This document shows positions 988-23,901 of a DNA stretch of 47,864 bases, piece by piece (the stretch's first letter is position 1; every line of letters starts with the position of its first letter). Made by a program: the position numbers and the translations under genes. This stretch comes from an uncultured Methylibium sp. GTDB taxonomy: Bacteria > Pseudomonadota > Gammaproteobacteria > Burkholderiales > Burkholderiaceae_C. Where the stretch lies: assembly GCF_902826655.1 (NCBI RefSeq), contig NZ_CADEFR010000023.1:5308-53171 (forward strand), in the 5' to 3' direction. The notes under the pieces were generated by a model. The model saw nothing but the letters and a program-made list of their open reading frames with translations. It had not been told where the DNA came from and made no database searches.

Positions 988-2907
<1,920 letters not shown>

Positions 2908-3084
2908 CGCGGCTCCTTCACCGATATCGGCCCGAGATGGCCGTCCTGCCCTTGCAGCGCCGAACGCGCTCGCTCTCGCGGGAAATTGGGGACGAGTTTA
3001 GTCCAGTCAAGTCCTGGCGCCGATCGGCTTTGCGACGCCCGGCGATAGCTGGTGACCGCTCGTTTCAGCGGTTTCGCCCGCTTT
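2908..3084. other. ftsH-rlmE intergenic region
   Basis: This 177-nt gap holds the ftsH ribosome binding site, the heat-shock-type promoter at 2983-3011, and a 6-bp perfect hairpin at 3055-3072 (ACCGCT, loop of 6, AGCGGT) just past the rlmE stop. That hairpin has no T-tract and may be only a weak 3'-end structure. No coding potential was found. Confidence 0.5.
2983..3011 (-). promoter_or_regulatory. Sigma-32-type (heat-shock) promoter of ftsH
   Basis: On the minus strand, CTTGACT (3011-3005) is followed after 13 nt by CCCCAATTT (2991-2983). This closely matches the RpoH consensus of a CTTGAAA-like -35 and a CCCCAT-T-like -10 with 13-15 nt spacing. No good sigma-70 -10 fits the same -35. Expected start of transcription is about 70 nt before the ftsH GTG. 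In E. coli ftsH is a heat-shock gene, which agrees. Confidence 0.6.
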
Positions 3085-3738
3085 TCACGCTTTCTTCGGA
3101 CCGATGCCGACCAGAAAGGTTTCGGACGACCGGTCGCGCGAGGCCTTGGGCTTGATCGGCTTGACCACCCGGAAGCGCCTTTTGAAGAGTTCGACCAGCT
3201 GGCTGTAGCCGCTGCCGTGGAAGACCTTGCAGACCAGGGCGCCCTCGGGCCGCAGGTGGGCGCCGGCGAAGTCGACCGCCAGTTCGACCAGCAGCGCGAC
3301 CCGGGCAGAGTCGGACGAGGCGATCCCGGACAGGTTGGGCGCCATGTCCGACACCACGACGTCCACCGGCCGGCCGCCGACCGCCGCCTCGAGCTGCGCC
3401 GCCACCGCCTCGTCGTGGAAGTCCCCCTGGATGAACTGCACGCCATCGACCGGCTCGAAGTCCAGCAGGTCGAGCGCGATGATGCTGCCGTTGAGCGCCC
3501 CGCCGCCCGGCGCCGCGAAGCGGCGGCGCAGGTACTGGCTCCAGGCGCCGGGCGCTGCCCCGAGGTCGACCACCAGCTGGCCGGGCCGGATCAGCCCCAG
3601 CGCCTCGTCGATCTCCTTGAGCTTGTAGGCGGCGCGGGCGCGATAGCCGTCCTTGTGCGCCATCTTCACGTAGGGGTCGTTGACATGGTCGTTCAACCAC
3701 GCCTTGTTGACCTTCTTGCTTTTCGTCTTGACCTTCAT
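3085..3738 (-). CDS. rlmE: 23S rRNA 2'-O-ribose U2552 methyltransferase RlmE
   Basis: RlmE (RrmJ/FtsJ) methylates U2552 in the A-loop of 23S rRNA on the 50S subunit, using SAM. The 217-residue protein has the basic N-terminus, the SAM motif VVDLGAAPG at 56-64, and the catalytic tetrad in context: Lys39 (AAYKL), Asp in VVSDMAPN, Lys in LVCKVFHG and Glu in SSETFLVG. Its start is 32 nt from the divergent yhbY ATG, and rlmE/yhbY adjacency is common. There is no Shine-Dalgarno; a GACAAT -10-like box lies about 10 nt upstream of the ATG. Confidence 0.96.
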
Positions 3739-3758
3739 CGGATGTCGATTGTCGCGTC

Positions 3759-3764
3759 GATAAT
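3759..3764 (+). promoter_or_regulatory. GATAAT -10 box implying a leaderless yhbY transcript
   Basis: GATAAT ends 6 nt before the yhbY ATG at 3771, so transcription should start at or next to the A of ATG. No Shine-Dalgarno is present. The -35 is weak. The same spacing recurs at rlmD and surE. Confidence 0.45.
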
Positions 3765-3770
3765 CCGGGC

Positions 3771-4241
3771 ATGCCTGCCCTTCAGCTCTCGCCTGCCCAA
3801 CGCAAGTCCCACCGCGCGGACGCCCATCACCTCGATCCGGTCGTGATGATCGGCAGCGACGGGCTGACCCCGGCGGTGCTGAAGGAGACGAACACCGCGC
3901 TCAACGCCCACGGCCTGATCAAGCTGCGCGTGCTGTCCGACGATCGCGAGGGCCGCGAGCAGCTGCTCGCCGACCTGGCCGAGCGCCTGGACGCCGCGCC
4001 GATCCAGCACATCGGCAAGCTCCTGGTGCTGTGGCGCCCGCTGCCACCCAAGGAGAAGGTCGAGCGCGAGGATCGCAAGCCCGGGCCGAAGGTGGTCAAG
4101 ATCCTCAAGTTCTCCAAGAGCGGCAACCATCGCGCGCAGGTCAAGAAGCTCACCGTGCTGGGCAACCAGCGCCTCACCGCCGGCGGCATCGTGAAGCGCG
4201 CCAAGAAGCGCGTCACCGGCAGCAAGAAGGCCGGCAGCTGA
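3771..4241 (+). CDS. yhbY: YhbY-family RNA-binding protein (CRM domain)
   Basis: This is a small pre-50S-associated RNA-binding protein. The CRM fold occupies about residues 5-95: [23 protein letters not shown], then the G-L-T-P-A-V-L-KE helix and the HGLIKLRV strand, ending in [10 protein letters not shown]. It is followed by a 55-residue lysine/arginine-rich tail that is longer than in E. coli YhbY (97 residues) but usual in Burkholderiales. The tail probably adds rRNA affinity. It is divergent from rlmE and convergent with the DUF502 gene, with only one base between stops. Confidence 0.92.
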
Positions 4242-4242
4242 G

Positions 4243-4929
4243 TCAGCGCCGCCCCGGCTCCGCCGCAGCGGCTTGGGGCAGGTGTTCGCGCGACGTGACC
4301 CCCATCGACACGTAGATGCTGGTCAGCGCCTCGATGCCGATATCGGCCGGCGTGACCCAGTCCTGCGGCACGTAGATGAGGCCGCCGCCGACCGGCACCG
4401 GCGAGGTCGGCACCAGCACCGCGTGGCAGGCCACCCCGCCGACGAGCACCGGCTCGGCGCAGGACAACAGCCCCAGCACCGCCGCGCCGCCCGGCCCGCC
4501 GAAGTGGCACCACACGGGTCGCATCGACTGCAGCCCGTCGGCATCGCGCGGCCCCAGCAGATCGACCAGCCGCTGTGCGATGCCATAGATGCCGCGCACC
4601 ACCGGGATGCGCTCGACCAGGGCGTCGACGGCCAGGCCGATCCATGCCCGCAGGCGCGTCTGCACCAGCAGCCCCAGCACGAAGACCGCCGCGGCGACGA
4701 TCGCCAGCCCGATGAGGTAGCCGACCACCTCGGAGCTGTCGCCACGCAAGCCCAGCGCGACCAGCCCGCGCCCGACGAAGCTGCCTGGGCCGACGTACTC
4801 GAGCAGCAGCCGCAGCACCCACACGACGATCAGCAGCGTCGCCGCCAGCGGCAGCGCCGCCAGCAGGCCGGCCAGGAAGATGCCGGCGATCGTCGGTCGC
4901 GCCGGTGGGGTCGATCGGTCTTCGGGCAT
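4243..4929 (-). CDS. DUF502 family membrane protein
   Basis: The 228-residue protein has two strong transmembrane segments (about residues 15-45 and 68-90). These are followed by a soluble conserved region with the DUF502 signatures IPVVRGIYGIAQRLVDLL, a GG-rich strand and VPTSPVPVGGGLIYVP. The biochemical role of the family is unknown; it is widespread and sits beside greA, rlmE and aspS-type genes. The ATG follows GGAGGAAA with good spacing. It lies 36 nt after the DUF4149 gene and is probably co-transcribed with it and greA. Confidence 0.88.
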   Translation of the reverse strand: MPEDRSTPPARPTIAGIFLAGLLAALPLAATLLIVVWVLRLLLEYVGPGSFVGRGLVALGLRGDSSEVVGYLIGLAIVAAAVFVLGLLVQTRLRAWIGLAVDALVERIPVVRGIYGIAQRLVDLLGPRDADGLQSMRPVWCHFGGPGGAAVLGLLSCAEPVLVGGVACHAVLVPTSPVPVGGGLIYVPQDWVTPADIGIEALTSIYVSMGVTSREHLPQAAAAEPGRR

Positions 4930-4965
4930 CGTTCGTTTCCTCCGGAGGCCGGCTCGGCGCCGCGG

Positions 4966-5421
4966 TCAGGGCCGGGCCGCTCGCCAGGCGAGCGCTGCAA
5001 CGATCAGGGCCTTCAGCCCGAACAGGCCGCTGGCCGCCGCGTGCAGCGTCGCGAAGGACCAGACACCCTGCCCCGCGCGCGCCGCCTCCAGCATGGGTTG
5101 CAGCGCGTGGTGGCCCAGCACCGTGCAGAACAGCGCGCCCAGGATCAGCAGCAACTCTCCGCTGAAGCGCGACCCGCCTCCGCCCTGCGCCAGGCGTGCC
5201 GCGCGGGCGCGCTCGATCAGACCGAGCACGACGCACAGCAGCAGGCTGAGCTGGGCCTCGATCGCGAACAGACGACCCGCGACGCGCCCGGCCGACGGCC
5301 GATCGAGCAGCCCGAAGAGGCTGGGGGCCGCGACGGCCCCCAATGCCAGCATCAGCCCCAGCCACATCGCCGGAAGCAGGCGCCGCAGGCGCTCGGCGAC
5401 GGCTGCGGCGCGCGCGCTCAC
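4966..5421 (-). CDS. DUF4149 family membrane protein
   Basis: This 151-residue protein has four predicted membrane helices (about residues 15-35, 48-68, 88-106 and 125-147). It includes the motif [17 protein letters not shown] and a conserved [12 protein letters not shown] loop typical of the DUF4149 family found after greA in betaproteobacteria. It starts at a GTG that overlaps the greA stop (GTGA), which implies translational coupling with greA. Function is unknown. Confidence 0.85.
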
Positions 5422-5894
5422 CGGTAGCGGACGCCGACGATCTCGTAGCGCCGCGTGCCGCCGGGCGCCTGGAACTCGGCCACGTCGCCGGCCTCCTTGC
5501 CGATCATCGCGCGTGCGATCGGCGAGCTGACCGAGATCAGGCCCAGCTTCAGGTCGGCCTCGTCGTCGCCGACGATCTGGTAGGTCACCTGGGCACCCGA
5601 GGCCTCGTCCTCCAGGTCGACGGTCGAGCCGAAGACGACCCGACCTCCGGCATCCAGCGTCGCCGGGTCGATGACCTGGGCGGCCGCGAGCTTGCTCTCG
5701 ATCTCGAGGATGCGGCCTTCGATGAAGCCCTGCTTGTCCTTGGCGGCCTCGTACTCGGCGTTCTCCGACAGGTCACCCTGGGCGCGAGCCTCCGCGATCG
5801 CCTGGATCACGGCGTGGCGATCGACGGACTTCAGGCGCTGGAGCTCTTCCTTGAGCTTCTCGGCGCCGCGTTTGGTGAGCGGTATCGTGGCCAT
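5418..5894 (-). CDS. greA: Transcription elongation factor GreA
   Basis: GreA inserts its coiled coil into the RNA polymerase secondary channel and stimulates cleavage of backtracked RNA. The protein starts [14 protein letters not shown] and is 158 residues long, the standard length. The coiled-coil tip carries [14 protein letters not shown] with the essential Asp and Glu, and the C-terminal FKBP-like domain ends in YEIVGVRY. I chose the ATG at 5894 over the in-frame ATG five codons upstream because it matches the family N-terminus and follows AGAGAA. It lies downstream of the carAB terminator, so it probably has its own promoter. Confidence 0.97.
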
Positions 5895-5913
5895 CGCGTT
5901 CTCTTGCATTGCA

Positions 5914-5963
5914 GCGCAAAAAATTCAGCCGCCCCGGGAAGCCGGGGCGGCCGACGTTTTGCG
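5914..5963 (-). terminator. Rho-independent terminator of carAB
   Basis: A 10-bp GC stem (5928-5937 with 5942-5951, loop of 4) is followed on the minus strand by TGAA and then six T (5923-5918). The core is enclosed by an outer stem pairing GCGCAAAA (5914-5921) with TTTTGCGC (5956-5963), so antiterminated RNA could form a longer nested hairpin. It lies between the carB stop and the greA start. Confidence 0.8.
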
Positions 5964-5968
5964 CGAGT

Positions 5969-9223
<3,255 letters not shown>

Positions 9224-18655: not shown

Positions 18656-18740
18656 GGGAGCGCCTGCGTCGCATCGGCGACGGAACGACGCCGTCGCGCT
18701 GCCTATCATCGCCGGCATGGCGCACCGAGGAGACACGACC

Positions 18741-19718
18741 ATGCATGCCTGGCTCTGCGAGAACCCGATCGGCCCCGAAGCCCTGAAGTGGACCGAACTG
18801 CCCACGCCGCAGCCCAAGGCCGGGGAGGTGCGCGTCGCCGTGCGCGCGGCCAGCCTCAACTTCCCCGACCTGCTGATCGTGCAGAACAAGTACCAGATGA
18901 AGCCGCCGCTGCCCTTCGTGCCGGGCTCGGAGTTCTCGGGCGTGGTCGAAGCCGTCGGCGAGGGCGTCGGCCATCTGCAGCCGGGCATGGCCGTGGCGTC
19001 CTTCGGCGGACTCGGCGGCTTCGGCACGCAGGTGTGCGTCAACGCCGCGCTCGCGATGCCGCTGCCACCGGGCTTCGCCTTCGACGATGCCGCGGCCTTC
19101 CTCTGCACCTACGGCACGACCCACCATGCGCTGATCGACCGCGGCCAGCTGAAGGCCGGCGAAACGGTGCTGGTGCTGGGCGCGGCCGGCGGCGTCGGCA
19201 CCGCGGCGATCCAGATCGCGAAGGCCGCGGGCGCGATCGTGATCGCCGCCGCCTCGACCGACGAGAAATGCGCGCTGTGCAAGCAGCTGGGCGCCGACGC
19301 GACGATCAACTACGCCCAGGGCGACCTGCGTGAGCAGATCAAGGCCGCCACTGCCGGCAAGGGGCCGGACATCGTCTACGACCCGGTCGGCAGCGACCTG
19401 GCCGAGCCGGTGTTCCGCTCGATCGGCTGGCGCGGCCGCTATCTCGTCATCGGCTTTGCCGGCGGCAGCATCCCGGCCCTGCCGCTCAACCTGACGCTGC
19501 TCAAGGGCGCCTCCATCGTCGGCGTGTTCTGGGGCGACTTCGCACGCCGCGAACCGAAGAACAATGCCGGAGCGCTGGCCGAACTGGCTGCCTGGTATGG
19601 CCAGGGCAAGATCAAGCCGGTGATCGAGCGCAAGCTCGCGATGCAGGATCTGCCGCGCGCCTTCGAGCTGATGGCCGCACGGCAGGTGCGCGGCAAGCTG
19701 GTGCTGACCGTCGACTGA
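18741..19718 (+). CDS. NADPH:quinone oxidoreductase family protein (zinc-less MDR)
   Basis: The 325-residue protein belongs to the quinone oxidoreductase branch of the medium-chain dehydrogenases, which reduce quinones or enoyl-CoA-like substrates with NADPH. It has the GroES-like domain ([26 protein letters not shown]) and the Rossmann motif [20 protein letters not shown]; the structural and catalytic zinc ligands are absent. I chose the ATG at 18741 because GAGGAGA precedes it. An ATG eight codons earlier is only 7 nt past a TATCAT -10 box (18704-18709). It stands alone, divergent from surE. Confidence 0.92.
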
Positions 19719-19812
19719 CACGCCGCCCCCCGTCGGAGTGCCCTCCGGCGAGCCATCGGCCGCCGAGGGCTGCGGTGCACAATCGCGCCCTGCCCGCCCC
19801 AGGACGCCGACC

Positions 19813-20802
19813 TTGCGACGAACCCTGCTCAAGCTCCCCCTGCTGGCCCTGGCCGGCGCGGCGGGGCGCGCCTTCGCGCAGGACCGTCCCTCCTACGCCT
19901 TCGGCGTCATCACGACCACCAGCGTCAGCGAGACCAAGCTCGCCTGGGACCCGTTCTTCGAAGCCATGCGACGCAGCACCGGGCTGGACGTGCGCGGCAT
20001 CTACCCGGCCACCTACGAGGAAGCCGTCGATGCGGTCGTCAGCAACCTCGCGCAGCTGGCCTGGGTCTCCAACAAGGCGGCGCTCGACTGCATCGAGCGC
20101 GCCAACGTCGAGGTCTTCGCCCAGCTCGTCGACTCGGCCGGTGCGCTGGGCTACCGATCGCTGATCGTGGCACGGCGCGACGCCTCGCTCGGCTCGGTCG
20201 AGCAACTGCTCGGCAAGCCGCGCAGCTGGCGGTTCGCGATGGGCGAGCGCAGCTCGACGTCCGGCGCGGTGATGCTCGAATACGCACTGTTCGTGCCGCG
20301 CAACATCAAGCCCGAGGAACACTTCCTGACGCTGCTGCGCGGCACCCATGCCCAGGCCCTCGACGCCGTGCTGTCGGGCCAGGTCCACGCCGCCACCTAC
20401 AACACCGAGGAACTGCACCGCCTGCGCGAGCAGGCACCGCACAAGGCCGCGCAGGTCAAGACGCTCTGGGAGTCGGCGATGATCCCGAAGGACCCGCTGC
20501 TGTGGCGGCGCGACCTGCCGCTGTCGGTGCGCAACCGCATCGCGGCCTTTGTCTTCGGCGTCGGCAAGACGGTGGAGGAGAAGGTCATGCTCAAGCGCAT
20601 GTTCGACCTGGCCGGCTTCAAGCGGTCGACCAACCAGCAGCTGAAGTTCGTGCTGGACATCGAGGACTTCCGCCAGCGCTCGGAGGTGCTGCTCGATGTC
20701 CGCATGAGCGAGCCGCAGAAGAACGAGCGCCTCGCCGACCTGCGCGAGCGCTACAACCGTCTGTCGACCGCGGTGCAGGCCGGCGTCGAAGCCGGCCGCT
20801 AG
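19813..20802 (+). CDS. PhnD-like phosphate/phosphonate-type periplasmic binding protein
   Basis: With a TTG start at 19813 the 330-residue protein begins with an Arg-Arg signal peptide (about residues 1-22, ending AGRAFAQ). Then comes a PhnD/SsuA-type type II binding fold: YAFGVITTTSVSETKLAWDPFFEAMRR, YPATYEEAVDAVVSNLAQLAWVSNKAA, RSWRFAMGERSSTSGAVM and the helical C-terminus. AGGA lies 8 nt before the TTG; a GTG 25 codons upstream would bury the signal peptide. No permease or ATPase is nearby. It leads a three-gene run with a response regulator and a histidine kinase, which suggests ligand sensing rather than transport. The ligand is unknown. Confidence 0.85.
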   Translation: MRRTLLKLPLLALAGAAGRAFAQDRPSYAFGVITTTSVSETKLAWDPFFEAMRRSTGLDVRGIYPATYEEAVDAVVSNLAQLAWVSNKAALDCIERANVEVFAQLVDSAGALGYRSLIVARRDASLGSVEQLLGKPRSWRFAMGERSSTSGAVMLEYALFVPRNIKPEEHFLTLLRGTHAQALDAVLSGQVHAATYNTEELHRLREQAPHKAAQVKTLWESAMIPKDPLLWRRDLPLSVRNRIAAFVFGVGKTVEEKVMLKRMFDLAGFKRSTNQQLKFVLDIEDFRQRSEVLLDVRMSEPQKNERLADLRERYNRLSTAVQAGVEAGR

Positions 20803-20831
20803 CGGCCCGGCACGCGTTTGAGGAGAGCACG

Positions 20832-21569
20832 ATGGCTGTCAAGGTGTTGATCGTCGAGGACAACCCGGTGGCGCGGCACTTTCTCGTGCGCGTGGTCCGC
20901 GAGAGCTTCTCGGACGTCACCGGCATCACCGAGGTCAGCGACCTCGCCGGCGCCCGGCGCGCCCTGGGCGTCGGCGGACTTGCCGGCCCGCCGCCGGGCA
21001 GCGAGCCGTTCAAGCTGGTGCTGGTGGATCTCGAGCTGCCGGACGGCAACGGCCTGGAGCTGCTGACCGAGATGGCCGGTCACGGCGCCACCAAGATCGT
21101 CACGACGCTGTATTCCGACGACGACCACCTCTTCCCGGCGCTGCAATGCGGCGCCGACGGCTACCTGCTCAAGGAAGACCGGTTCGAGGTGCTCGTCGAG
21201 GAGCTCCAGAAGATCGTGCGCGGCCAGCCGCCGCTGTCGCCGGCCATCGCGCGTCGGCTGCTGTCGCACTTCCGGTTGTCCGACTCCGGATCGATGCCGC
21301 TGGACGCGCCGATCGCGCCGGGCGACTTCCAGCCCGCGCGCAGCATCGCGCCGCCGGTCTATGCCGAGCCCGATCACGAGCGCCTGACGCCGCGCGAGAC
21401 CGAGGTCCTGACCTACCTCAGCAAGGGCTTCACGATCAAGGAGATCGCCGGGCTGATGGGCATCAAGTGGTTCACCGTCAACGACCACATCAAGGCGATC
21501 TACCGCAAGCTCAACGTGTCCAGCCGCGCCGAGGCCGCGGTGCTGGCCAGCAAGCAGGGCCTGGTCTGA
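20832..21569 (+). CDS. LuxR/NarL-type response regulator
   Basis: The 245-residue protein has a receiver domain (KVLIVEDNPVARHFL) with the phosphoacceptor Asp66 in LVLVDLELPDG. Asp66 is later than usual because of a Gly/Pro-rich insert (about 45-58). The Thr and Lys contacts are in IVTTLYSDDD and GYLLKED. A flexible linker leads to a C-terminal LuxR-type helix-turn-helix (LTPRETEVLTYLSKGFTIKE, about 180-235). TTGAGGAGAG precedes the ATG. It lies 29 nt after the binding-protein gene and 22 nt before the histidine kinase, so all three are likely one operon. Targets are unknown. Confidence 0.93.
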   Translation: MAVKVLIVEDNPVARHFLVRVVRESFSDVTGITEVSDLAGARRALGVGGLAGPPPGSEPFKLVLVDLELPDGNGLELLTEMAGHGATKIVTTLYSDDDHLFPALQCGADGYLLKEDRFEVLVEELQKIVRGQPPLSPAIARRLLSHFRLSDSGSMPLDAPIAPGDFQPARSIAPPVYAEPDHERLTPRETEVLTYLSKGFTIKEIAGLMGIKWFTVNDHIKAIYRKLNVSSRAEAAVLASKQGLV

Positions 21570-21591
21570 CGCGGGGCGACGCGACGCGCCG

Positions 21592-23901
21592 ATGAGCACC
21601 CTGCCTCCGGCGTCCGCGAACCGGCCTTCGCCGACGCGTGACCGACGCGGCGCCTACCGCGGCAGCGGCCGCGGCGACGGCGGCGACTCCAGCCTCGACA
21701 CCGGCGTCCTCGAGCAATGGCTGCCGTCGCGGGTGCGGCACTCGCGCTGGCTCGGCTGGCGGCTGCGAGCCCTGGTCGCGCTGGCGCTGTGCGGCTGCGT
21801 CGGCCTGTTCCTGCTGACGCGCATGCTCGCAGCGCAGCCGTCGATCGACGCCAGCTGGCGCGCCAATCCGCAAGGGCAGCTCGAGCTCGCGGCCAGCGGC
21901 GACCCGGCGCTCGCGCCCTTCGTGGGCCGGGCGCTGCTGGGCGTGATGGGCGGCGACAACCGGATCGCCGTGCTCGATCCGCTGGTGCTGCAGCGCTCGC
22001 CGCGCTGGCTGCCCGACGACGCCGAGCGCGCCCGCCATCGCGAGCTGCACGCGCAACTGCACGCTGCGCTGTCGCAGCAACCGGTGCGGCTGTACTTCGC
22101 CGACGGCGGCACGGCCGAGCTCAAGCTGGGCCCGCGCGGCAGCCTCCACCTGGGCTTGCTCTACTGGCTGCTGGCCGGCCTGGCCCTGGTGCTGTATCTC
22201 ATCGCGATGGTGGTGGTGCTGGTCCGTCCGACGCTGCGCAACACCCTGTACGCGCTGATGGCGCTGGCGCAGAGCGGCAACCTGCTGTTCATCGCCTCGG
22301 CCAGCACGCTCGACCTCGCGCTGCCCGCCGGTTTCGCGAGCTGGGAGATGCGGGCCAGGATGCTGTTCGACCTGGTCACCGCCGCAGCCATCGCGCACGC
22401 CGCGGCTGTGCACCCGCGCCGCCTCCCCTACGCCAGCGCGATGGCCGTGCTGGCCTGGGGCACGGTGGTCGCGCTGGTCGTGCTGGAGCAGTGGCACCAG
22501 CTGCCTTCGGCCTGGTGGTGGACCCAGGGCGCCGGCGCGGCGCTCGGTCTGGCCGCGATCGCCCTGCTCGGCTGGTCCTACCGCATCGAGCCGCACCCGT
22601 ACGCGATGGTGCTGCGGCGCTTCGGCATCATCACCGTCGGCACCTGGATCCTGCTGACGGCCGCCGTCGCCGCAGTGAGCCAGCAAACCGGCCCGCAGTA
22701 CGGGATCGCGATCGTCGGGTCGATGATCTGGGTCGTGTTCCTGGCTTCGCTGCTGCTGCTGGTGCCCTTCCTGGCCAAGTCGCAGCAGGTGCTGCGCGAG
22801 TTCTCGCTGCTCGCCGGCATCAGCACCGTCGCCACCTCGCTCGACCTGCTGTTCGTCGCCGCGTTCTCGTTCGGCCAGTTCACGTCGATCACGCTGTCGG
22901 TGTTCCTGGCGCTGGGCCTCTACGCCGGCGCGCGCCAGTGGATGCTCAACCAGCTGCGCGGCAGCCGCATGCTGACGATGGAGCGCCTGTTCGAGCGCCT
23001 CTATCGCATGGCGCGCGAAGTCGAGGCCCACCCCGAGCGCGCCTCGCGGTCGCTGCTGGGCCTGCTGCGCGAGTTGTTCGAGCCGCTGGAAGCCGGCGTC
23101 GCCGCCAAGGCCAGCCGTCGCGCCCGCGCCAGCGGCGACGGTTCGACGCTGGCCGTGCCGGTGCCCGACCTCAGCCGCGTCAGCGGCCGGGCCGACGAGA
23201 CGCTGGTCCTGCGCTTCTCGCACCGCGGCCGGCGACTCTTCACCGAGGAAGACGCGCGCCTCGCCGACCGCATCGTCGACCAGCTCAAGCGCGCCGTCGC
23301 CTTCGACCAGGCCGTGGAACGCGGGCGCAGCGAGGAACGCAGCCGCCTCGCGCAGGACCTGCACGACGACATCGGCGCACGCCTGCTGACGCTGATGTAC
23401 CAGGCCCGCAGCCCGGAGCAGGAGGAGTACATCCGCCACACCCTGCAGGACCTGAAGACCCTGACGCGCGGCCTCGCCGTCAGCAGCCATCGGCTGTCGC
23501 ATGCCGCCGGCGAGTGGAAGGCCGATCTCGGCCAGCGCCTGCAGCTCGCCAACATCAGGCTGGACTGGCAGGCACGCCTGGACCGCGACACCGAACTCAA
23601 CGTGGTGCAGTGGTCGGCGCTGACGCGCATCCTGCGCGAGCTCGTCAGCAATGCGATCGCCCACGCGCAGGCGACGCAGCTGCTGATCACACTGGACCTG
23701 CAGGACGACAGCCTCGAGCTGCTGGTCCGCGACAACGGCCACGGCCACAACCCGCAGGTCTGGGCTCACGGCCTGGGTCTGGGTGGGGTGCGCAAGCGCG
23801 TCAAGCAGCTCGGCGGCGACGTCGAGTGGCGCGAGGCGGTGCCGAGCGGCATCGAGTGCCGCGTGCGCTTCGCGCACTGGTCGCAGGCCGCGAGCGGCTG
23901 A
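21592..23901 (+). CDS. Multi-pass membrane histidine kinase (HisKA_3/NarX-like output)
   Basis: The 769-residue kinase has an Arg/Gly-rich cytoplasmic N-terminus (1-50), a first transmembrane helix (about 58-78), a periplasmic loop of roughly 110 residues, and then a block of 7-8 membrane helices (about 188-460). The kinase core has SRLAQDLHDDIGARLL with phosphorylatable His591, the N-box RELVSNAIAHA, and the G boxes DNGHGHN and HGLGLGGVRKRV. It is most likely the partner of the response regulator encoded just upstream. The periplasmic loop is a plausible dock for the PhnD-like protein of the same operon, but this is inference. Confidence 0.92.
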   Translation: MSTLPPASANRPSPTRDRRGAYRGSGRGDGGDSSLDTGVLEQWLPSRVRHSRWLGWRLRALVALALCGCVGLFLLTRMLAAQPSIDASWRANPQGQLELAASGDPALAPFVGRALLGVMGGDNRIAVLDPLVLQRSPRWLPDDAERARHRELHAQLHAALSQQPVRLYFADGGTAELKLGPRGSLHLGLLYWLLAGLALVLYLIAMVVVLVRPTLRNTLYALMALAQSGNLLFIASASTLDLALPAGFASWEMRARMLFDLVTAAAIAHAAAVHPRRLPYASAMAVLAWGTVVALVVLEQWHQLPSAWWWTQGAGAALGLAAIALLGWSYRIEPHPYAMVLRRFGIITVGTWILLTAAVAAVSQQTGPQYGIAIVGSMIWVVFLASLLLLVPFLAKSQQVLREFSLLAGISTVATSLDLLFVAAFSFGQFTSITLSVFLALGLYAGARQWMLNQLRGSRMLTMERLFERLYRMAREVEAHPERASRSLLGLLRELFEPLEAGVAAKASRRARASGDGSTLAVPVPDLSRVSGRADETLVLRFSHRGRRLFTEEDARLADRIVDQLKRAVAFDQAVERGRSEERSRLAQDLHDDIGARLLTLMYQARSPEQEEYIRHTLQDLKTLTRGLAVSSHRLSHAAGEWKADLGQRLQLANIRLDWQARLDRDTELNVVQWSALTRILRELVSNAIAHAQATQLLITLDLQDDSLELLVRDNGHGHNPQVWAHGLGLGGVRKRVKQLGGDVEWREAVPSGIECRVRFAHWSQAASG

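Follow-up and report, generated by a model that had tools for sequence, protein, structure and literature searches.

Gene arrangement and protein features

The window analyzed here is a stretch of 47,864 nucleotides from an uncultured Methylibium sp. (NCBI RefSeq assembly GCF_902826655.1, contig NZ_CADEFR010000023.1, positions 5,308 to 53,171), in which three consecutive genes encode a PhnD-type periplasmic binding protein (SBP), a NarL/LuxR-type response regulator (RR) and a membrane histidine kinase (HK) (Table 1). A first-pass annotation, made from the letters of the window, had proposed these three genes, and we find them confirmed in that order, with 29 nt between the SBP stop and the RR start and 22 nt between the RR stop and the HK start. 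The gene upstream encodes a zinc-type alcohol dehydrogenase/quinone reductase (ADH) and an MscS-type gene lies downstream of HK; both assignments stem from the domain scan. A search that covered permeases but not ABC ATPases yielded no PhnE-type permease match within the window.

Table 1. Features of the SBP-RR-HK cassette and its upstream region (positions in the window).
Feature	Position	Strand	Remarks
PhnD-type periplasmic binding protein (SBP)	19813..20802	+	TTG start, 329 aa, N-terminus MRRTLLKL
NarL/LuxR-type response regulator (RR)	20832..21569	+	245 aa; receiver and GerE helix-turn-helix
Membrane histidine kinase (HK)	21592..23901	+	769 aa; ~10 helices, GAF-like linker, HisKA_3-type H-box, HATPase_c
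HK periplasmic alpha/beta domain, ~residues 81-188	21832..22155	+	from structure model; presumed SBP docking site
HK catalytic part (H-box and ATPase domain), residues 582-759	23335..23868	+	from domain scan
ADH-SBP gap	19719..19812	+	presumed promoter region of SBP-RR-HK in the window's genus
Zinc-type alcohol dehydrogenase/quinone reductase (ADH)	18717..19718	+	usual upstream neighbor; context, outside the mechanism

The regulator matches Response_reg and GerE at 48.5 and 59.1 bits, both above cut-off, which upholds its initial description as LuxR-type. In HK, HATPase_c lies above its cut-off with 44.2 bits, HisKA_3 remains below its cut-off of 24 with 20.4 bits, the H-box QDLHDDIGARLL is present, and C-terminal matches to profiles of the NarX/UhpB type all fall under their cut-offs. 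The structure model and hydropathy suggest ten helices, one before and nine after a single large periplasmic loop of ~108 residues, the last two being placed with low confidence (pLDDT ~61-72); the length of 769 residues and the single loop originally given for HK are thus retained, while the original count of 7-8 membrane helices is not. Structure searches with the kinase returned no named fold for the periplasmic domain, as helices filled the results. The kinase family is wider than the cassette, because two loci (L103 and L105) encode distant kinases of similar length with 27-34% identity and HisKA_3/HATPase_c, and a related regulator lies nearby.

Family, pocket and conservation of the binding protein

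SBP matches the Pfam family Phosphonate-bd (E 6.2e-58) and TIGR01098 (130.7 bits, cut-off 112.05) and scores 175 bits against the PhnD equivalog TIGR03431, below the cut-off of 261.1. Its initial assignment as PhnD/SsuA-type therefore stands for PhnD; SsuA is not among the matches listed, and the SsuA/sulfonate label was dropped because the family matches are of the PhnD type. The N-terminus is one that we take to be Tat-like. In an alignment with PhnD, all eight pocket residues compared are kept (SBP/PhnD: Y68/Y47, Y114/Y93, S148/S127, T149/T128, S150/S129, H179/H157, E199/E177 and D227/D205, with the PhnD numbers Y47, Y93, S127, S129 and H157 taken from the alignment and from recall). PhnD uses Glu177 and Asp205 to grip the amino end of 2-aminoethylphosphonate, according to a passage of PMC5908839. 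Judged by these residues, the ligand of SBP is most likely an aminophosphonate (2-aminoethylphosphonate) or a close analogue, which would narrow the range first suggested (phosphonate, phosphite, sulfonate or another oxyanion) to the 2-aminoethylphosphonate type.

Compared with 18 further PhnD-type SBPs from the family (18 of 20 non-cassette alignment rows, L131 and L151 left out; neighborhoods were read for some), cassette SBPs show fixed differences that include Ser86, Arg115, Lys226 and four positions in loop 33-42. Arg115 adjoins a pocket tyrosine and Lys226 adjoins Asp227. Position 86 is serine in all eight cassette SBPs, glycine in the 18 others and cysteine in AioX, whose pocket cysteine for arsenite is C106 (PMC5908839, in part). 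An arsenic-oxyanion sensor of the AioX/ArrX type was rejected on these pocket residues, with Ser86 in place of C106, and we regard it as highly improbable. Loop 53-61 of AioX is described in PMC5908839 as shifting upon arsenite binding and as a proposed contact with AioS; in our reading, loop 33-42 of SBP would correspond to it. The gene is under purifying selection, with dN/dS ratios of ~0.11-0.26 in the six pairs computed.

Distribution of the three genes

Intact SBP orthologs were found in eight genomes including that of the window, with 63-78% identity to the window SBP: four of six genomes of the window's genus (G000, G060, G172 and G299) and four of five of a second genus, g96 (G096, G197, G301 and G302). 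The order ADH-SBP-RR-HK is kept in all eight, with SBP always between ADH and RR, so that co-occurrence of the three genes, which had been put forward at the outset as a check, is found in two genera. In G250, where RR and HK are uninterrupted, the neighboring SBP is cut to 107 of 329 residues and ADH shows a gap with a shift in frame (L113, 6214-7351), a state caused by gene decay or by an assembly fault. G300 has only a partial PhnD-type match of 36%, away from the cassette (L147, G300:C491:4814-5179), and G271 has no SBP match in a search at E 1e-20. The next-best SBPs in the 299 genomes of the family (E 1e-20) are at most ~38-39% identical to that of the window. Judged by eye, five of five such proteins (L119-L123) have an ABC ATPase gene as one neighbor and a permease gene as the other, like PhnD, and the PhnE profile confirms the permease next to such SBPs in G133, G201, G066, G197 and G091. 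A different arrangement was seen at L131 (G071:C2:106000-118000, 2730-6903), where two tandem PhnD-like SBPs lie by a divergent hybrid kinase of the composition HAMP-HisKA-HATPase-receiver, possibly a second, unrelated PhnD-type signaling module; paired nearby SBP matches are listed also in G122, G177, G215, G255 and G285, judging from match positions alone.

The kinase reaches much further. An HK ortholog with 41-100% identity is present in 60 of the 299 family genomes (130 have a match at E 1e-20; orthologs are the 60 whose E value, in a count by eye, is 4.2e-145 or lower, with partial matches in G043 and G246 set aside). Only five of these 60 carry an intact SBP, which is therefore an accessory gene that was either acquired or, repeatedly, lost. 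According to locus tables and a genome-wide search, 54 of the 60 show no SBP ortholog, their best SBP match at E 1e-20 having at most 36% identity; in G275 the contig stops before the SBP spot. At SBP-less loci the genes usually stand in the order ADH-RR-HK, ADH and RR being 25-301 nt apart, behind a gene that we take to be SurE; in some loci ADH lies apart from RR. The three named matches, two Rhizobacter and one Aquincola, have ADH-RR-HK and no SBP. RR is 69-91% identical across orthologous loci and more conserved than HK. Among 399 sampled genomes of the order, HK matches at E 1e-60 were restricted to G000 and G091, both of the window's family, and SBP at E 1e-75 to the window's own match; 12 of the listed genomes belong to the family, so other family members were hardly sampled. 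The RR-HK pair is thus a wider, independent core unit, and the initial picture of one cassette defined by SBP has to be given up. The three-component sensor probably arose by addition of SBP onto an existing two-component pair.

A kinase tree of 60 rows was calculated; it and the residue comparisons below left out locus repeats (L013-L019, L073 and L032), L097, which has no N-terminal part, and the distant kinases L103-L112. SBP-bearing rows form two separate, non-sister clades that are joined in no bootstrap tree, and a single change of SBP state, with G250 counted as SBP-bearing, is not supported, as it occurs in 0 of 200 bootstrap trees. The SBPs of the two genera have no closer relatives in this sample than one another; therefore, the SBP gene is old and often lost, or it moved between genera. 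Its history may thus comprise two gains, a transfer, or frequent loss of an old gene.

Transcription

The motif TA[ACG][CG]AT, which we read as a putative promoter element, occurs 15-120 nt before RR in 44 of 54 SBP-less loci, compared with 2.4 expected from single-base shuffling. It was not found before RR in any of five loci of the window's genus, where SBP, RR and HK probably form one transcript. In a longer form, it is seen at SBP-less loci (e.g., L012 and L031) as a recurrent TGCGCTAnnAT-like element at most 120 nt before RR, which may be a promoter or a regulator site.

The kinase periplasmic domain in relation to SBP

When six SBP-bearing HK rows (G250 included) were compared with 54 SBP-less rows, ten columns were fixed in the former and rare in the latter, and six of the ten lie in the periplasmic domain. 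In a control with 170 other clade pairs, one pair has at least six shared residues in the domain. Three further SBP-bearing genomes outside the alignment, relatives of the same two clades, retain 17 of 18 such residues. With g96 as reference, the four kinases of the window's genus rank 1, 2, 4 and 5 of 58 for excess domain similarity. For RR, which is located between SBP and HK, there is no comparable excess (ranks 52, 56, 57 and 58 of 58 for the window-genus rows). This counts against transfer of one DNA block, so that a joint move of SBP, RR and HK from one genus to the other is not supported. The pattern in the aligned kinases fits an adaptation of the HK periplasmic domain to SBP.

Phosphonate transport and breakdown genes

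In the window's genome (estimated completeness 100%), profile searches gave no match to PhnJ at all and, for PhnE (best E 5.8e-9), PhnW and PhnX, none above cut-off; one sub-cut-off PhnE match lies on the same contig outside the window (C23:728-1273). Its SBP therefore has no PhnE transporter to serve and persists without the tested transport and breakdown routes. The PhnX and PhnW absences are the weaker ones because their cut-offs were reached by 0 of 14 control genomes; G201 passed PhnW. None of the eight SBP-bearing genomes has an above-cut-off PhnE near the cassette, in agreement with the first-pass annotation, which had seen no permease there; where present, PhnE resides on other contigs or at least ~52 kb off, the nearest being that of G172 (same contig, ~52 kb away). 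PhnJ occurs in two of the eight (G060 and G197), PhnX above cut-off in none of the eight, and PhnW above cut-off in none of the five tested. A second PhnD-type SBP is encoded elsewhere in G096 and G197, in the latter beside PhnE.

Interpretation

We consider it probable that ligand-loaded SBP docks on the periplasmic domain of HK and thereby adjusts its activity, a mechanism proposed also for AioX-AioS. This reading is favored because all eight intact SBP orthologs sit at this locus between ADH and RR-HK, because SBP is under purifying selection and persists in the window's genome without the tested phosphonate routes, because its pocket residues match those of PhnD, because fixed changes occur in loop 33-42, where the AioX loop is the proposed kinase contact, and because non-sister SBP-bearing kinase clades share six rare residues in the periplasmic domain. 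SBP would be exported to the periplasm, presumably by the Tat-like route, and would there bind a small, phosphonate-like molecule that carries a positive charge at one end, such as 2-aminoethylphosphonate or an analogue. The closed SBP would then touch the periplasmic alpha/beta domain of HK, docking would shift both the multi-helix membrane part and the histidine kinase to another state, in one direction or the other, and HK would phosphorylate the NarL-type RR and through it act on putative target genes. The kinase aided by a binding protein that the first-pass annotation had envisaged thus appears probable, with the correction that RR-HK is the wider and independent core and SBP an add-on.

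Several observations weigh against docking of SBP on HK. SBP-less kinases, apart from that of G103, whose N-terminal part is missing, keep the same periplasmic domain, which therefore does not exist for SBP, and SBP is lacking in the large majority of HK-bearing genomes. The one control pair that matches the SBP-bearing clades in the residue-sharing test shares seven residues, and the test itself was devised after the columns had been seen, counts G250 as SBP-bearing and concerns one clade pair. With the window's genus as reference, domain similarity shows a weak excess, SBP-less L118 ranking first and L117 fourth, with L116 outside the top eight. In g96, TA[ACG][CG]AT is present between SBP and RR in four of four loci; with a promoter-like element of RR's own, SBP and HK need not share a transcript, and SBP and RR-HK are perhaps two transcripts in this genus. 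Finally, a passage of PMC11113362 reports that binding of an SBP to the sensor domain of AgtS was not seen although the SBP is encoded adjacently, which advises caution in inferring interaction from adjacency.

Some of these observations would be expected if SBP stood outside the sensor, as an orphan copy of PhnD that was trapped in the operon and is retained for scavenging or for delivery to a distant transporter. Its absence from 54 of 60 HK-bearing family genomes, the promoter-like element of the g96 RR, the shortened SBP of G250 (107/329 residues) beside unbroken RR and HK, and an above-cut-off PhnE elsewhere in seven of the eight SBP-bearing genomes, all but the window's, speak for this explanation. 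Pairing with a distant transporter had been named from the start as one possible objection; it finds no PhnE above cut-off in the complete-looking genome of the window, but in the other seven SBP may have such a partner, even if G197 has another PhnD beside a PhnE and G096, too, encodes a second PhnD-type SBP. An orphan would, moreover, hardly be expected at the same locus in eight of eight cases or in company with an HK periplasmic domain whose similarity tracks SBP presence, and we therefore judge this explanation unlikely. It is also conceivable that HK senses a signal of its own via its membrane and periplasmic domains, that SBP modulates or competes as a co-receptor or negative regulator, and that SBP-less kin answer the same cue. 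This would agree with an identical HK architecture with and without SBP and with the conservation of RR (69-91% identity across loci); however, a ligand of HK itself is hypothetical, and the excess periplasmic-domain similarity of the two SBP-bearing clades would, by this alone, be left unexplained, so that we give this alternative little credence.

Returning to docking of SBP on HK, we tentatively suggest, as a possibility that is itself open to some doubt, that a kinase with a 7TM-like membrane part, SBP-less in most of the family, recruited a PhnD from outside the pair as its subunit for ligand sensing, and that its own periplasmic domain adapted to this subunit in two separate lineages. 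If so, the origin of a three-component from a two-component system could be tested with close relatives that have or lack the subunit, and a kinase pathway would sense an aminophosphonate even where, as in the window's genome, the tested genes for phosphonate transport and breakdown are lacking. Relatives with the same HK and RR but no SBP offer a natural comparison of how an SBP is wired onto a kinase, and the system, if it works as proposed, is a candidate aminophosphonate biosensor.

Comparison with known systems

The kind of arrangement is known, whereas this particular version is one for which we found no description; none was recognized among the open-access papers listed by the literature searches. 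Stand-alone periplasmic SBPs paired with a membrane signaling protein, as in the cassette, reportedly include XAC2383 with the diguanylate cyclase XAC2382 (structure 5ub3). LuxP/LuxQ and TorT/TorS, to which the first-pass annotation had likened the cassette, also consist of a binding protein that signals to a kinase, and LuxQ and TorS are hybrid kinases. The idea of signaling from SBP to kinase is kept as a proposal, but LuxP and TorT are SBPs of structurally distinct origin, as stated in PMC5908839, and it is AioX-AioS-AioR and its relatives that are directly analogous. In the tetrathionate and thiosulfate kinases TtrS and ThsS, as far as described in the pertinent part of PMC5408782, the sensing domain is PhnD-like too but part of the kinase, whereas here it is a separate protein. 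Unlike PhnD of PhnCDE transporters (3p7i and 3n5l), the cassette SBP has no adjoining PhnE, stays below the PhnD equivalog cut-off, and carries the cassette-specific Ser86, Arg115, Lys226 and loop 33-42.

The closest parallel is formed by AioX-AioS-AioR and by ArxX and ArrX, in which, as here, a free SBP with PhnD fold, a kinase and a regulator occur together without a transporter; a passage of PMC5908839 presents them as three-component systems for arsenic oxyanions in which the ligand-loaded SBP is thought to act upon the kinase. The cassette differs in that its SBP belongs to the PhnD lineage, with a pocket of the 2-aminoethylphosphonate type and without the arsenite cysteine, in that its kinase has ~10 helices and the SBP is optional in the family, and in that its regulator is NarL-type, whereas AioR acts upstream of an RpoN promoter (PMC5908839, in part). 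In 2018, the AioX orthologs were stated to be the only members of their binding-protein family with a known signaling role (same source). If our reading is correct, the cassette would be a second case of free-standing signaling, this time by a protein of the PhnD lineage whose pocket is of the aminophosphonate type, and thus an independent recruitment.

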